Assembly (NCBI RefSeq): GCF_000330505.1
Contig: NW_004440103.1
Coordinates: 54,869-78,327, forward strand
Reading direction: 5' to 3'
Origin: Entamoeba invadens IP1
Lineage: Eukaryota > Evosea > Mastigamoebida > Endamoebidae
Length of the DNA: 23,459 nt
Shown here piece after piece: positions 10,096-17,613 of the stretch. The notes beneath the pieces were generated by a model, which searched no databases, had not been told where the DNA came from, and saw only the letters and a program-made list of their open reading frames with translations. The first letter of the stretch is position 1. Every line of letters starts with the position of its first letter. Position numbers and translations under genes: made by a program.

Positions 10096-10420
10096 AAAAA
10101 ACTATTTTATTCGACAATATAACAAATTTGTTGTGATTTTGTTTGAATATTTTATTTGTTTATTTAATAACATTTTAATTTAATTTTCTAAATTAAAAAC
10201 AACAGTTTTAATGAAATATTTTAACTATATAAATACAATGAATATCATTTTGGTGACCCATTTTTTATTATATTTAGCACTATAATATTGTATTATATTT
10301 TAATAATAAATTATCATTTAAGAATGGGTATTTTTACGAAAATAATCTCATAACTTGTAATGGTGAATTATATATTGATCTATAATTTATTAAAGTTGTT
10401 TACAAAGAAGGATTTTGAAA
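10096..10420. other. AT-rich promoter-side intergenic DNA of the LRR gene
   Basis: No gene. An in-frame ATG at 10360 would extend the LRR protein by 31 residues, but these are low-complexity, lie upstream of the TATA-like element and do not match the usual N-terminus of the family. Confidence 0.5.
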
Positions 10421-10429
10421 TATTTAAAT
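10421..10429 (+). promoter_or_regulatory. TATTTAAAT core promoter element
   Basis: TATTTAAAT lies 24-32 nt before the ATG at 10453 and matches the Entamoeba TATA-like consensus (GTATTTAAA type). With the very short leaders usual in Entamoeba, it points to the ATG at 10453 rather than 10360 as the start. Confidence 0.6.
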
Positions 10430-10452
10430 ACCGAAAAACTGTAATTATAAAA

Positions 10453-11607
10453 ATGTGTGGACTTTCTGGTTATCATGCTATGATAGTATCGAAGTACTTT
10501 GAGACTATCAAAGACTTTATAAACTTGGAGTTTGTATGCAAGAAGTTTAGTGGTAATATGGGAAAGTTTCATTTTAATCCGTTTTCGTTGAATTCCAAAA
10601 CACTTGGATACTTTCCAAACATCGAGACACTTCACTTGTGGAATAAAAAAGATGAAAATTTTGGCAATGAATTTATGACCAACACAGAAGAAAATGAAGA
10701 CAATGGAGATATAACCATTTTAAAGAAAAAGTTCTTTCGAATTATTGTGTGGTTCAGTGTTGATTTTGGAACGGTTGACAGAAACAAAAGTCGAAACATC
10801 CAGTTTAAAAATGTCACTTACACTGAAAATGATAGAAATAAATATGGTTATATCATACCATTGAGCGTAACATTTATTGATGGTAATTGTTTTGATGGAT
10901 GCAGTAGTTTAACTAGTGTTACAATACCATCAAGCGTGACATCAATTGGTGATAATTGTTTCTTTGGATGCAACAGTCTCAGCAGTATTACAATACCACC
11001 ATGTGTCACATCAATTGGTGATGGTTGTTTCTGTGAATGTAGTAGTTTGAGCAGTGTTACAATTCCACTAGGTGTCACATCAATTGGTGATTATTGTTTT
11101 GATGGATGCAGTAGTTTAACTAGTGTTAACATATCATCAAACGTAAAATCAATTGGTAGATGTTGTTTCTGTAAATGTATTAGTTTGAGCAGTGTTACAA
11201 TTCCATCTAGTGTTAACTCATTTGGTGATTATTGTTTTTGTGAATGTAGTAGTTTGAGCAGCGTTACAATACCATCGACTGTCACATCAATTGGTGATGG
11301 TTGTTTCTGTGAATGTTGTAGTTTGAGCAGTGTTACAATTCCACTAGGTGTCACATCAATTGGTGATGGTTGTTTCTGTGAATGTAGTAGTTTGAGCAGT
11401 GTTACAATTCCATCTAGTGTTAACTCATTTGGTGATTATTGTTTTTGTGAATGTAGTAGTTTGAGCAGCGTTACAATACCATCGACTGTCACATCAATTG
11501 GTGATAATTGTTTTGATGGATGCAGTAGTTTAACTAGTGTTAACATACCATCAAACGTAAAATCAATTGGTAGATGTTGTTTTTCATCAAACACAGTAGT
11601 TCATTAA
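10453..11607 (+). CDS. BspA-like leucine-rich repeat protein
   Basis: 384 residues. Residues 1-75 (MCGLSGYHAMIVSKYFETIK...) are the N-terminal domain common to Entamoeba BspA-family LRR proteins. An acidic linker follows, then a truncated first unit and ten 23-residue LRRs of the Treponema/Bacteroides BspA type (L-S-S-V-T-I-P-S-x-V-T-S-I-G-D-x-C-F-x-x-C-S-S). The repeats are cysteine-rich (usually CF..C). There is no signal peptide, no hydrophobic anchor and no CAAX box; it ends S-S-N-T-V-V-H. The family is large in Entamoeba and is thought to mediate protein binding at the surface or in the cytoplasm; the partner here is unknown. The start is set by the TATTTAAAT box. TTAATTT at 11618-11624 just after the stop fits the Entamoeba poly(A) motif. 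Near-identical repeat blocks indicate recent internal duplication. It is the only clearly intact host protein gene here. Confidence 0.92.
   Translation: MCGLSGYHAMIVSKYFETIKDFINLEFVCKKFSGNMGKFHFNPFSLNSKTLGYFPNIETLHLWNKKDENFGNEFMTNTEENEDNGDITILKKKFFRIIVWFSVDFGTVDRNKSRNIQFKNVTYTENDRNKYGYIIPLSVTFIDGNCFDGCSSLTSVTIPSSVTSIGDNCFFGCNSLSSITIPPCVTSIGDGCFCECSSLSSVTIPLGVTSIGDYCFDGCSSLTSVNISSNVKSIGRCCFCKCISLSSVTIPSSVNSFGDYCFCECSSLSSVTIPSTVTSIGDGCFCECCSLSSVTIPLGVTSIGDGCFCECSSLSSVTIPSSVNSFGDYCFCECSSLSSVTIPSTVTSIGDNCFDGCSSLTSVNIPSNVKSIGRCCFSSNTVVH
10854..11590 (+). repeat. 69-bp tandem LRR-coding repeats with higher-order duplication
   Basis: Successive 69-bp units encode the 23-residue LRRs. Block copies are nearly identical at DNA level with offsets that are exact multiples of 69: 11181 versus 11388 (207), 11044 versus 11320 (276) and 11101 versus 11515 (414). 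This pattern indicates recent unequal exchange or slippage inside the gene. Confidence 0.85.
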
Positions 11608-11624: not shown

Positions 11625-12033
11625 GATAATATTTCATTTATTTATTTTTTATTATTAATAAAAATAATAATAATTGAAAAAAACAATTAATTATTAGCGA
11701 AATTAATTTTATCATTTTCTTAAAGCGCGCGAGAAATAGGAGGAGGTTACTAAAGCCGACCCCCTCTTCCACCTCCTGGTAACAGAGATTACTTAAATGT
11801 AAGATTTTGTAATTTGGTGAGTATATACCACGTCTTTTTAAAAATTAAAAACAAAAGTTAATATAACAGAATTAAGTTATATCAAGAAAAAGTATCAGTT
11901 TTTAATCAATAATATGAAAATAAAACCAAATAATTTAATTGACTTGTTATTCCATAATATAGAGACAATTTATTATGTTTTTTGTTTGTGTAATGTTATG
12001 CACATTATCAAATTTTTAAAATGGATACAATTA
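11625..12033. other. Intergenic DNA with a small GC-rich island
   Basis: AT-rich except 11724-11786, which contains GCGCGC, AGGAGGTTAC (11741-11750) and ACCTCCTGGTAAC (11771-11783). AGGAGGT can pair with ACCTCCT. No gene or known RNA is recognised. Confidence 0.45.
12032..12033. repeat. TA target-site duplication, left
   Basis: TA directly precedes the left inverted repeat, and TA (13565-13566) directly follows the right one. A TA duplication is the hallmark of Tc1/mariner-type insertion. Two bases alone are weak evidence, but they agree with the protein encoded inside. Confidence 0.5.
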
Positions 12034-12034
12034 T

Positions 12035-12363
12035 TTTCACAACAATTCCTTATTTTTTCATAACAAGGAAAAATAGATTTCTGTTTCATAACAATTAGAT
12101 TTGTACATTTTTTCAGCCCTGTTTTAAAATAATTATTTTTTGTTTTACAATTTGCGTGATTGTTGCATAATTGGCATTATTGTTGCATATCAATATCAGG
12201 TGTTTCAGAACTATTAATTTATCCTCAAATCAATAATTTATTGTTCCAAAACAAAAAGTTGTTTCATAATTATTGTATTTTGTTTTAAAATAATATAGTA
12301 TTATTGTATAATCGCATTGTATAATTTCACAACAAAACGTTATAAATTAACACAAAAAATAAA
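12035..12363 (+). repeat. Left terminal inverted repeat with ~20-bp iterons
   Basis: The arm is built from degenerate copies of a word like GTTTCATAACAATTA, starting at about 12083, 12121, 12142, 12162, 12182, 12202, 12243, 12261 and 12282, with weaker copies near 12035, 12056, 12103, 12222, 12304 and 12325. The spacing is about 20 bp or twice that, and exactly 20 from 12142 to 12202. The outer TTTCACAACAATTCC is echoed at the inner end as TTTCACAACAAAACG. These are probably transposase-binding sites (inference). Confidence 0.85.
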
Positions 12364-12485
12364 CTATAAACTAAAAAATAATATAATCGCAATTGGATTC
12401 TTTGAGTTCACCCACGGAGATGAAGTCAAAGGATTTTTAATCGCGAAGAGGTTTTTTATTTGTAGAAACACCACAACCGGTAGAA

Positions 12486-13004
12486 ATGGCAGAAAGAAAA
12501 ACAGCCGATGACATTGTTACCTCATTAGTCCCACTACCACCTCAGCCATTTGTACACACAGCTCAACAATTGAATAATGAGAGGACTAAGAGGATTTATG
12601 TCGTTGTTACAGAAACACAGAGGAAGACTTTAACTGAAGAATACGCTGAATATGGGAAGGCAAAATACTGGAAGTTCTATAAATTTGGTGAAAAAAATCG
12701 TATTAGTGAGTCTTCAGTTAAAAGATTATTGGGACAATTGGCGAAAGGAGAAGACATATCGAAACCCAGAAAACAAGGAAGAAAGTTTAAATACAGTACT
12801 TCACTTCTTTCAGCTATTGCCAAAAAGTTGTCACTTGAAGGAAAAATTCTCAGAGAAACCAAAAAGGCTTTTACAAAAGAGGAGTTAAAAAAAGAATTGA
12901 AGGAGGAACTATTCTTTGAAATTGTTAGTGTGTCAAAAATGTACTTTTATATCAAGAACAAGAATAACATGGAAGAAGCAAACCATCATCACTTTTTTTA
13001 CTGA
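12486..13004 (+). CDS. Tc1/mariner-type transposase DNA-binding protein without catalytic domain
   Basis: 172 residues from the ATG at 12486 to the TGA at 13002-13004. Residues about 47-85 form a first helix-turn-helix candidate ending in ISESSVKRLLGQL. Residues 95-104 (R-K-Q-G-R-K-F-K-Y-S) resemble the GRPRK-type AT-hook linker of Tc1 transposases. Residues 105-158 form a second HTH candidate ending in IVSVSKMYFYIKNK. This is the paired-like arrangement of Tc1/mariner DNA-binding domains. Full transposases are about 340-400 residues with a DDE/DDD core after this point; here the frame ends in NHHHFFY with no catalytic domain downstream. It may be a deletion derivative whose product binds the inverted repeats and competes with full transposase (inference). 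The frame is intact and basic. The start could lie upstream, but no better ATG is in frame. Confidence 0.7.
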   Translation: MAERKTADDIVTSLVPLPPQPFVHTAQQLNNERTKRIYVVVTETQRKTLTEEYAEYGKAKYWKFYKFGEKNRISESSVKRLLGQLAKGEDISKPRKQGRKFKYSTSLLSAIAKKLSLEGKILRETKKAFTKEELKKELKEELFFEIVSVSKMYFYIKNKNNMEEANHHHFFY

Positions 13005-13072
13005 AATCATTATCAGGGGTCCGATCAAATACTGATTAGAGCTTCGACTATATCACACCAACAATAATATGC

Positions 13073-13100
13073 AGAGTGATTACTCACTCTACCTTGGTAG
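13073..13100. other. Hairpin in the 3' interior of the transposon
   Basis: AGAGTGA (13073-13079) pairs perfectly with TCACTCT (13084-13090) around TTAC. An overlapping alternative stem is CTACC/GGTAG (13089-13100). It lies between the stop codon and the right inverted repeat and could be a structured 3' UTR or a deletion scar. Confidence 0.4.
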
Positions 13101-13234
13101 TGACTCGTTAAGTTTTTCCCATGAAGACATGTATTTTTTTAAGTTATCTCGTGTTTAATATTAATTTTTATCGAATAGATTATAAAATTATACCAATTTA
13201 AATTGTTTATTAAAAGAGTTTTGTTTTGATAATA

Positions 13235-13563
13235 TTTATTTTTTGTGTTAATTTATAACGTTTTGTTGTGAAATTATACAATGCGATTATACAATAATAC
13301 TATATTATTTTAAAACAAAATACAATAATTATGAAACAACTTTTTGTTTTGGAACAATAAATTATTGATTTGAGGATAAATTAATAGTTCTGAAACACCT
13401 GATATTGATATGCAACAATAATGCCAATTATGCAACAATCACGCAAATTGTAAAACAAAAAATAATTATTTTAAAACAGGGCTGAAAAAATGTACAAATC
13501 TAATTGTTATGAAACAGAAATCTATTTTTCCTTGTTATGAAAAAATAAGGAATTGTTGTGAAA
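13235..13563 (-). repeat. Right terminal inverted repeat with ~20-bp iterons
   Basis: Exact-length reverse complement of 12035-12363; every segment I checked is identical. It carries the same iteron array in mirror image, so iterons in both arms point the same way relative to the element ends. Confidence 0.85.
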
Positions 13564-13564
13564 C

Positions 13565-13566
13565 TA
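13565..13566. repeat. TA target-site duplication, right
   Basis: TA immediately follows the right inverted repeat, matching TA at 12032-12033. Confidence 0.5.
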
Positions 13567-13994
13567 ACTATATTTTATAAACTTGAGATTTGGTGTTTTT
13601 GATCAATTTAATTTAATTTAATGCTATTATAATTGTTTTTTAAATTGTTTAATAATTTCGTTTATTTTTTAATTCAACACTTAAAAACACTTCCTGTTAA
13701 AAGTGTATTCAAATATTCATTTAATATTTCGGAAATTGACCACTTATTTTTTATTATAAATATAGTAAAACAAACTAAATTAATTAATTTTCAAAATTAT
13801 CAATTATTTACCAAGTGCAGTAAAATCAAACAAAATAACAAAGTTTTTTCTTGTTAAAATGATTTGTCGTTGATTTACAACGTCTTATTTAAACCTTTAT
13901 CGTTTAGTTTTGTTTTTCAAAATCATTAAACTTGTTGACACTACTTTTTAAACTCGATGTGTTTCACAAAAATCAATCAATTAAAATGTTTTCC
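13567..13994. other. AT-rich intergenic DNA
   Basis: An open frame at 13633-13857 (74 codons) has low-complexity, Asn/Phe/Ile-rich text without a domain. I do not call it a gene. Nothing else is seen. Confidence 0.5.
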
Positions 13995-15399: not shown

Positions 15400-16529
15400 A
15401 TAGGAGAAGAAGGAGCTGAAGTACAAGACTTGTTGTAGATAATGGATCCGGTATGTGCAAGGCCGGTTTAGCTGGTGATGACGCATCACAAGCTGTCTTC
15501 CCATCAATTGTTGGAAGACCAAAACAAGTCTCAGTAATGGCTGGTATGGGCAACAAGGACACTTATGTTGGAGATGAAACACCTCAAAGAGAGGTATTTT
15601 GACTTTGAAGTACCCAATTGAACACGGTATTGTCAACAACTGGGACGACATGGAGAAGATCTGGCACCACACTTTCTACAACGAGCTCAGAATTGCACCA
15701 GAAAAGCACCCAGTCCTCTTGACCGAAGCCCCAATGAACCCAAAGGCTAACAGAGAAAAGATGACACAAATCATGTTCAAGACTTTCAACGTCCCAGCCA
15801 TGTACGTTGAATTGGGGCGTTCTTTCATTGTACGCCATTGATAGAACGACTTTATTGTCATAAATTCTGGTGACGGTGTCTCTCACTGCGTCCCAATCCA
15901 TGAAGGATTCTCACTCCACACGCCATTCTCAGAATTGATTTTGCTGATCAGATCTCGCTGACTACCTCATGAAGATCTTGACTAAAAGTTGTTATTCATT
16001 CATTTCAACTGCTGAAAGAAAAATTGTCAGAGACACTAAAAAATACTCTGTTACTTTGCTCTTGACTTCAACAAAAAAAAATGCAGAAAGCTGTTTCATA
16101 ATCAGAACTCGAGAAGTCATACGAACTTCCAGATGGTCAAGTCATCACTATTGGCAATGAGAGATTCAGATGCCCAGAAACACTCTTCCAGCCATCATTC
16201 CTTGGTATGGAAGCATTAGGTATCCACGAGACAACTTACAACTCAATCATGAAGTGCGATGTCGACATCAGAAAGGACTTGTACGGAAACATCGTCTTGT
16301 CTGGTGGAACATCAATGTACCCAGGCATCATCAGCAACTTGAGAAGGAGATGGTTGCTCTTGCGCCACCAACAATGAAGATCAAGGTCATTGCACCACCA
16401 GAGAGAAAGTACTCCGTCTGGATTGGAGGCTCAATTCTTGCTTCATTGTCCACTTTCCAGAACATGTGGATCACCAAGAAAGAGTACGACGGGTCTGGAC
16501 CAGCCATCGTCCACAGAAAGTGCTTCTAA
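15400..16529 (+). pseudogene. Actin pseudogene
   Basis: The region matches Entamoeba actin end to end but in several frames. The expected ATG is ATA (15400-15402) followed by [15 protein letters not shown] and [14 protein letters not shown] read in one frame (about 15432-15590), [20 protein letters not shown] and [19 protein letters not shown] in another (to about 15800). Broken text around 15800-16110 follows, including SGDGVSHCVP and DYLMKIL. Then [19 protein letters not shown] and [17 protein letters not shown] read on, and after a last frameshift near 16340 it finishes with [19 protein letters not shown] and I-V-H-R-K-C-F plus TAA (16527-16529). Its 1130 bp is close to a full 376-codon gene, so small indels rather than large deletions broke it. 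There is no intron. Higher GC than the flanks marks it clearly. Intact actin drives motility and phagocytosis; this copy is dead. Confidence 0.93.
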
Positions 16530-16834: not shown

Positions 16835-17613
16835 TGGGAAAAACCCCTGTCCTCTTCCATAGCCTCTGAAGATGCCAAACCCAATAACAGAGAAAGAAAA
16901 TTAGTTTTCATCTTATTTATGCAGGGTATCTGAAATATTTTGAAGCCGACTATAGTCCCCATTTTGTTGGTAACACCACTTGACTTGGATTTGGTCTGGA
17001 GAGTTGCTTCAGCACTTGGTGCAGTCCCATGTATCCTCACCTTATATCACAGAATTATAATGCCGATGCCAAAGAAGAAAGTAGCTGCAAAGGCTACGAA
17101 GAGTGAGGTGAAGCGACTGATTAAGAAGAATTGGTATTACTTATTTGGGACCGCTGGTTGTTGGTTCTTCGTTGATATTGCGTTCTATGGCAACTCGATG
17201 TTTAATTCCACGGTACTACAAGTCATTGGATTTAAACCGAAAGACACGGACAGTGATCACCGGCAAGGCCCGATCTCCACTGCAATAAAAAATTTGATAT
17301 TAGTCTCAATTGCATTCCCTGGCTTCATAGTCAGTTTCTTATTAGTCGATCGGATTGGAAGAAAGCCATAACAGTTGTTTGGATTTGCTGGAACAGCGGT
17401 TTGTTTGTTGTTCTTATGATCGGAACAGCTATTTCTGAACCATTCTCGTCCAAGTTTGGTCACTTAGCGACGTTCTGTACATGTGGTGGATTGATGATGA
17501 TTAGGTTCTGTTTGTTGTTCATTGCCCCGGAAGGAGAGGGCGTCGATATATAAGATGTCGTGTTCTCTACGGGTATAAGAGGTTCGAAGACGACACTTCC
17601 AAAAGTGTAGAGA
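16835..17613 (+). pseudogene. PHO84-type inorganic phosphate:H+ symporter (MFS) pseudogene, 5'-truncated
   Basis: The first recognisable text, P-L-S-S-S-I-A-S-E-D, corresponds to the G-G-D-Y-P-L-S-x-x-I-x-S-E motif in TM4 of the phosphate:H+ symporter family, so TM1-3 are missing. The frame continues (NNRERKLVFILFMQG), hits TGA at 16931, and runs on through DLDLVWRVASALGAVPCILT (TM6 end), an Ala/Lys-rich central loop, the WYYLFGTAGCWFFVDIAFYG helix, then FPGFIVSFLLVDRIGRKP. TAA interrupts at 17369. After a further frameshift near 17417 come IGTAISEPFSSKFGHLATF and, past another stop, F-S-T-G-I-R-G-S (17560-17590), which recalls the F-P-T-x-x-R-G motif near TM11. Intact relatives import phosphate across the plasma membrane. 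Multiple stops and missing ends make this copy non-functional. Confidence 0.85.

Follow-up and report, generated by a model that had tools for sequence, protein, structure and literature searches.

The locus described here raises the question of why both inverted arms of a transposon should be filled along their length with short, degenerate words placed about 20 bp apart. It lies within a stretch of 23,459 nucleotides of Entamoeba invadens DNA (the window), for which a preliminary description had been correct as to the Tc1/mariner type and the phased units, but not as to the ends of the element, its recent activity or the alignment of all sites along a full arm on one side of the DNA. The reading favoured below is that the words are probably binding sites for the element's own transposase.

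Ends, arms and coding remnant of the window element

The element occupied positions 12028–13570 (1543 bp) and was a decayed, internally deleted and frameshifted Tc1/mariner (DDE_3) copy. The TA target-site duplication was found at 12026–12027, homologous to the TA preceding CAGTTAG in seven other complete copies, and at 13571–13572, a position that was likewise compared with the sister copies; TA flanked the window copy on both sides, as it did the seven sisters. In the larger element set discussed below, ends were searched as TACAGT-like, such that TA was there partly by construction; the ends of the seven sisters were not searched in this way. The sister boundary consisted of TA and CAGTTAGTTTCAC at the left, and of GTGAAACTAACTG and TA at the right, in all seven complete copies, with small variants further inward. 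The window carried mutated forms of these, its termini being CAAT and ACTA where the seven complete family-A sisters had CAGT...ACTG. Its left terminus (CAATTATTTTCAC) differed from CAGTTAGTTTCAC by two changes and its right terminus by one, the last base being mutated; given these changed termini, the window copy has probably lost its mobility. The TA pairs previously taken as the ends (12032–12033 and 13565–13566) fall inside the terminal inverted repeat (TIR), and the true ends lie 6 bp outward. Assignment to the Tc1/mariner type was borne out by the TA duplication, the CAGT...ACTG termini of the sisters and the DDE_3 domain of the relatives.

The left arm (12028–12363, forward strand) and the right arm (13235–13570, reverse strand) were each 336 bp long. 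Positions 12025–12363 and 13235–13573 were 99% complementary, and 12035–12363 matched its partner arm at 329 of 329 positions; when 12026–12363 was compared, mismatches occurred only at 12028, 12030 and 12034. The three positions at which the arms differ all lay within the outermost 7 bp (12028–12034 and 13564–13570), as if arm-to-arm copying ended short of the termini. A search of the 35-Mb, 233-contig genome with the interval of the preliminary description listed 84 matching stretches, many being the two arms of one copy.

Since the two arms are identical beyond base 7, a motif chain obtained on the right arm was transferred to the left. It placed 15 iterons on the forward strand at 12032–12333, starting at 12032, 12053, 12081, 12098, 12119, 12140, 12160, 12180, 12200, 12220, 12241, 12259, 12280, 12301 and 12322; in the right arm the 15 units were inverted, with starts from 13566 down to 13276. 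The units are degenerate versions of a GTTTCANAACAA-like word, 15 to each arm, and most lie 20–21 bp apart; the spacing was exactly 20 bp between the units starting at 12140, 12160, 12180 and 12200. Both the iteron arrays of ~20 bp and this exact run of four units had been proposed beforehand, and were confirmed. When spacing was left free between 12 and 29 bp, the successive steps were 21, 28, 17, 21, 21, 20, 20, 20, 20, 21, 18, 21, 21 and 21. The sister copies L009, L010 and L014 had one common spacing series over 14 steps, with 20 and 22 where the window has 21 and 28, and one or two extra units at the inner end of the arm; motif positions were thus conserved among genome copies, as the preliminary description supposed. 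The 28-bp step of the window (22 bp in these sisters) is due to a 7-bp insertion that was present in both window arms and in no other fetched locus.

Downstream of the left arm, an ORF of 172 aa (12486–13004, forward strand) was recognised as a remnant of the DNA-binding half of a transposase, since it aligned over both predicted helix-turn-helix (HTH) regions. Its N-terminus was lost through a frameshift, the upstream frame being broken, and its C-terminus was frameshifted. An internal deletion had its junction at 13040–13041 (forward strand), where 503 bp of sister L009 (1025–1527) were absent; these hold all three catalytic codons, as placed by hand from the frames. The 172-aa protein had no significant match in Pfam or PDB, and comparison of its frame with the nearest relative indicated mild constraint only (dN = 0.076, dS = 0.158).

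Full-length relatives with a catalytic domain, as had been anticipated, were found in the same genome, where DDE_3 matched in at least 150 places. The domain lost from the window copy was identified in L010 (E = 5e-18), L027 (E = 1.1e-22) and L041 (E = 1.2e-19), and some of the relatives had open frames of 402–452 aa. Residues D242, D323 and E357 (L027 numbering) were invariant in 35 aligned sequences, with 33 residues separating the second D from the E. An AlphaFold model of L027 (pLDDT 81.6) comprised an N-terminal extension, helices at 78–119 and 138–194, and the catalytic domain; in the model the helices can be read as two HTH regions preceding the catalytic domain. A Pfam search of the L027 protein gave no HTH match, and the best PDB match of the model in Foldseek was the Mos1 transpososome (4u7b, E = 8.2e-9). 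Elsewhere, relatives with 22–49% identity were found at 52 loci in viral_contigs; none was found with L041 as the query, nor any relative of L027 in genome_contigs. One derivative (L018:498–1602) was MITE-like, 1105 bp long, with arms identical over 324 bp, and in it no frame opened by ATG exceeded 44 aa.

Three other features were observed near the element in the window. A BspA-type leucine-rich-repeat gene with 69-bp tandem repeats adjoins it (10360–11607; 415 aa; LRR_5, E = 2e-107). Repeats of this type, AT-richness and the many DDE_3 places accord with an Entamoeba genome. A broken actin gene (15599–16529) was represented by two separate frames matching Pfam Actin (E = 3.3e-27 and 4.5e-25), and 16940–17371 resembled the major facilitator superfamily only weakly (E = 0.003, below the cut-off).

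The position of the coding remnant bears on one alternative, namely that the arrays are mainly promoter-proximal operators through which the element regulates itself, the repressors being truncated proteins like the 172-aa product. The open frames begin ~40–110 bp inward of the left arm, the 172-aa ORF retains both predicted HTH regions, and in a reporter assay Bari3 transposase reduced the expression driven by the Bari3 TIR (PMC4120734, partial text). However, the right arm is equally complete, though no promoter is needed there, and the 172-aa frame is without its N-terminus and under the mild constraint just described. A mainly regulatory role seems unlikely on this evidence, and sites at which transposase assembles on the ends are preferred.

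A common period among long-armed families

In the window arm the two best lags in autocorrelation were 21 (z = 3.42) and 20 (z = 3.32), with weaker values at lags 40–42 and 60–61. The null maximum over lags 10–60 was 3.10 at 95% and 3.48 at 99%, and the signal was therefore barely above chance; the peak near 20 bp that had been predicted exceeded the first limit and not the second, and was stronger in sister L009 (lag 20, z = 5.2). With leave-one-out scoring, the motif chain reached 91.7 bits at a spacing of 19–22 bp, against at most 41.3 bits for the other five spacing classes and 41.5 bits for the best of 50 shuffles.

The analysis was extended to 46 sources, from which 34 elements were accepted (TACAGT-like ends plus inverted arms) and 12 left out, being without an inverted repeat or without such ends. 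L058 was accepted but left out of analyses, its arms matching poorly. From the 34 elements, 16 arms entered the autocorrelation, comb and free-spacing fits, and 14 the spacing-class test. Families A to M are an informal grouping by transposase and word, and every arm came from one genome. The array arms were 164–527 bp long, with 11–18 units each.

The 19–22-bp class was the best of six in all 14 arms (13 families), at 53–173 bits. A later batch consisted of L132, whose arms had already been seen, and L133–L138; L133 and L135 were left out because not both of their ends were found. The five arms with complete ends again preferred 19–22 bp, L132 and L138 representing new families and L134, L136 and L137 being relatives of M, G and L respectively. 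The preference thus held for 19 of 19 arms from ~15 families. The first shuffles had used half the search seeds of the real arms; repetition with equal seeds and 50 shuffles gave the same result, each of the 19 arms beating 50 out of 50. Among 94 controls, 19–22 bp was best in six: three of 57 inner segments, two of 23 flanks (these 80 being a random draw from a larger pool) and one of 14 short-TIR ends. The last was the 3' end of L131, which with 42.1 bits outscored the 20 shuffles made from it.

Pooled over 13 families, z was 9.3 at lag 20, 13.6 at lag 21, 9.2 at lag 41 and 8.4 at lag 62, with no clear gain at the half-steps (1.6, -2.5 and -3.1 at lags 10, 30 and 50). A 10.5-bp signal of curvature or nucleosomes was not seen in the pooled values. 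When spacing was free between 12 and 29 bp, 96 of 190 steps were 20 or 21 bp. The best-fitting period was 19.85–20.6 bp in 15 of 16 arms, the fit being weak in K, and H giving none; the free-spacing fit lost the period in H and K, and a rigid 20.4-bp comb was weak in six of the 16 arms (D, E, G, H, K and M). Compensation of phase between neighbouring steps was weak (r = -0.22, permutation p = 0.046; H, K and extra A copies left out). Because the period is shorter than 21 bp, sites on 10.5-bp DNA would drift by ~15–40 degrees per unit. The proposal that all sites face one side of the DNA therefore holds for neighbouring units but not along the whole arm.

Twenty further DDE_3 loci were inspected. 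Ten had TIRs of ~20–30 bp, seven of these with ends reading TA then AACTG (L113, L114, L120, L124, L125, L129 and L130) and the remaining three being L121, L123 and L131; one (L132) had a long phased arm, and nine had no clear TIR (L115–L119, L122 and L126–L128). Among elements with readable ends, arrays go with long arms. Two of the short-TIR elements had further features. The element L121:1536–5051 (3.5 kb, 28-bp TIRs) encoded a DDE_3 protein of 695 aa, and another of its ORFs matched an Ulp1-type protease (Peptidase_C48, E = 2.5e-4); a similar-looking second ORF occurred in L118 (LupA, below the cut-off). A fragment of a glyceraldehyde-3-phosphate dehydrogenase gene (L129:2446–3195) lay ~60 bp from a short-TIR element.

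The period of ~20.4 bp was common to the families and the words varied between them, those of each arm being very degenerate. The words were GTTTCAAAA-like in families A–F, AAAAAGGATGG in I, GGATNTAATT in L, ATTAGGTA in J, ATTATC in M and AAAAATGATGAA in L132. Similarity of words was not significantly related to similarity of transposases across eight families (Spearman 0.19, Mantel p = 0.16). Within family A, variable columns were not significantly rarer in the iteron core (22 of 120) than in the spacers (37 of 178; p = 0.66); unit positions 1, 2 and 5, chosen post hoc, looked conserved, with 2 of 45 columns variable. The fourth unit of the window arm contained TGTACATTTTTTCA (12102–12115, forward strand), an instance of a TGYACM-then-TCA form common to families A–F. 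This form occurred once in each of seven arms from these families and was not found by the same pattern in the other 12 of 19 arms; it stood at base 75 of the arm in the window, 68 in L009, 68–70 in B, C, D and F, and 110 in E. Its role may differ from that of the ordinary units.

A uniform period with changing words might also be produced if the arrays bound a host protein or set a nucleosome-like or HMG-type chromatin, for silencing or marking, and the transposase used the outer site only. Nucleosomal DNA has ~10.2 bp per turn, and ~20.4 bp is two turns at that value. Yet no clear gain of the kind given by rotational nucleosome positioning appeared at lags 10, 30 and 50, the spacing was found at only one of 14 ends of short-TIR Tc1/mariner elements in this genome, and words that vary between families argue for a reader encoded by the element. 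A host reader is improbable on these grounds, and the transposase remains the preferred occupant of the units.

Concerted evolution of the arms

Changes in the arms, defined as departures from the majority letter, were almost always shared by both arms of an element. In gap-free columns of eight families, 151 changes (113 columns) were common to both arms while 11 affected one arm; these counts are of letters rather than of independent events. Family A alone contributed 96 both-arm and seven one-arm changes, and three of the seven were at the ends of the window element. With gap columns the counts were 104/7 and 151/10, together 255/17, which include one block of 40–41 bp counted per column.

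Arms are exchanged between elements as well, those of L009 and L015 being 98–99% identical and their ORFs 77%. In 26 of 28 family-A pairs, similarity was higher for the left arms than for the ORFs; of the other two pairs, one was tied and one showed the reverse. The arms of L043 and L044 were 98% identical except for a 41-bp block corresponding to two units, while the arms within each element matched. Gaps between distant arms were mostly of 17–22, 40–41 and 61–62 bp, with others of 6, 7, 10 and 12 bp; these sizes were not treated as strong evidence, since alignment of periodic sequence tends to open gaps of unit length. Among the length changes, only the block in family K (L043, L044 and L050; 98–99% identity) escapes this bias.

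The near-perfect identity of the window arms had been taken to suggest recent activity. Because arms evolve in concert, their identity is no clock and no evidence of such activity, and the window copy itself has altered termini, carries frameshifts and has lost its catalytic domain. In elements of this kind, the age of an insertion should not be taken from the identity of its TIRs.

That the arrays are functionless remnants of tandem, satellite-like growth of a terminal site, their pattern kept visible by homogenisation, is also improbable. In favour of this reading, arms can differ by whole units (the 41-bp block), concerted evolution is strong and the core positions of family A are without extra constraint. 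Against it, units within an arm are far diverged and still keep their spacing across families with different words, the TGYACM site keeps a distance of 68–70 bp to the arm's end in L009 of family A and in B, C, D and F, and the non-coding arms exceed the ORF in similarity in those 26 family-A pairs.

Proposed transposase loading and comparison with known systems

Phased arrays were present in every long-TIR arm tested, with a common period, words differing between families and concerted arms, and one clean change in arm length involved two units. As judged from sequence, these patterns are best explained if the units are sites for a transposase with two HTH regions and the arms serve as platforms on which it loads cooperatively for synapsis, with autoregulation as a possible further role; we consider this account probable. 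The predicted two-HTH transposase, the words differing between families, the fixed register and the precedent of Bari, where repeats in the ends are bound (PMC4120734, partial text), together suggest that each unit is one two-HTH site. The unconstrained core of family A, the lack of a significant relation between words and transposases, the arms in which the rigid comb or the free-spacing fit was poor, and the phased short-TIR end of L131 speak against so simple a reading. Whole arms would then be tandem arrays of recognition units placed two helical turns (~20.4 bp) apart, on which many transposase molecules would load in register, so that the ends are cooperatively marked and paired; only the terminal CAGT end would be cut. 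As the array is directly upstream of the ORF, it may when loaded repress transcription while transposase is abundant. Copying from arm to arm and from element to element would keep the arms alike, probably through gene conversion or palindrome-templated break repair.

A bolder and more doubtful possibility is that these elements form a branch of Tc1/mariner in which ends with one to three sites have given way to arms that are regular tracks, along which transposase might polymerise into a helical filament with one molecule per two turns. The DNA would then be slightly overwound, and it is similarly conjectural that the ~20.4-bp register would be under selection while the word was free to drift. 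Tc1/mariner ranks with the best-studied transposase superfamilies, and few binding sites are described for its ends. If a branch with 11–18 sites in a fixed two-turn register is real, it would offer a system for transposase assembly along DNA, and would inform the number of subunits per synapse and the manner in which a word changes at ~15 sites in two arms. Concerted evolution provides a route to a new word, since a change in one arm may be copied to the other.

A foldback-type organisation, which had been suggested for this element, stands as an analogy of arm structure and not as ancestry. Foldback and Galileo elements are defined by a transposase of P or Mutator type together with target duplications that exceed TA in length. 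What the present elements share with Foldback, Galileo and Tetris is inverted arms of great length with internal repeats; unlike Foldback and Galileo, the relatives found here carry DDE_3 and duplicate TA, and the Galileo transposase places Galileo with P elements (PMC3573991, partial text).

Tc1/mariner families of Entamoeba have been named, and Pritham (2005) is said to be their source description. Hydargos, Gemini, Piglet, Mogwai and Gizmo (PMC2657916, partial text) are possibly the same elements as those examined here. The mariner TIRs of <50 bp given in the same partial text fit only the short-TIR groups of this genome. Among the open-access titles and abstract openings examined, none dealt with phased arrays in Tc1/mariner arms. 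Relative to the few-site ends described for Tc1/mariner, phased-array arms may be new, with an earlier mention in Entamoeba possible.

The closest known organisation is that of IR/DR Tc1-like elements, which have a TA duplication, a DDE transposase and long TIRs with internal transposase sites. The TIRs of the Tc1/mariner superfamily are typically of 12–28 nt (PMC4054914, partial text). In the IR/DR group (Sleeping Beauty, Minos, Bari, S and Paris), the partial text of PMC4120734 describes ends of ~250 bp with two or three direct repeats. Like that group, the present elements combine a TA duplication and a DDE transposase that has a two-part DNA-binding region with long TIRs containing repeated internal, here putative, sites for the transposase (PMC4120734, partial text). 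They differ in number and arrangement: as the preliminary description had supposed, there are more units than is usual for Tc1/mariner ends, with 11–18 putative sites per arm, phased and filling the arms, in place of two or three at each end (PMC4120734, partial text).
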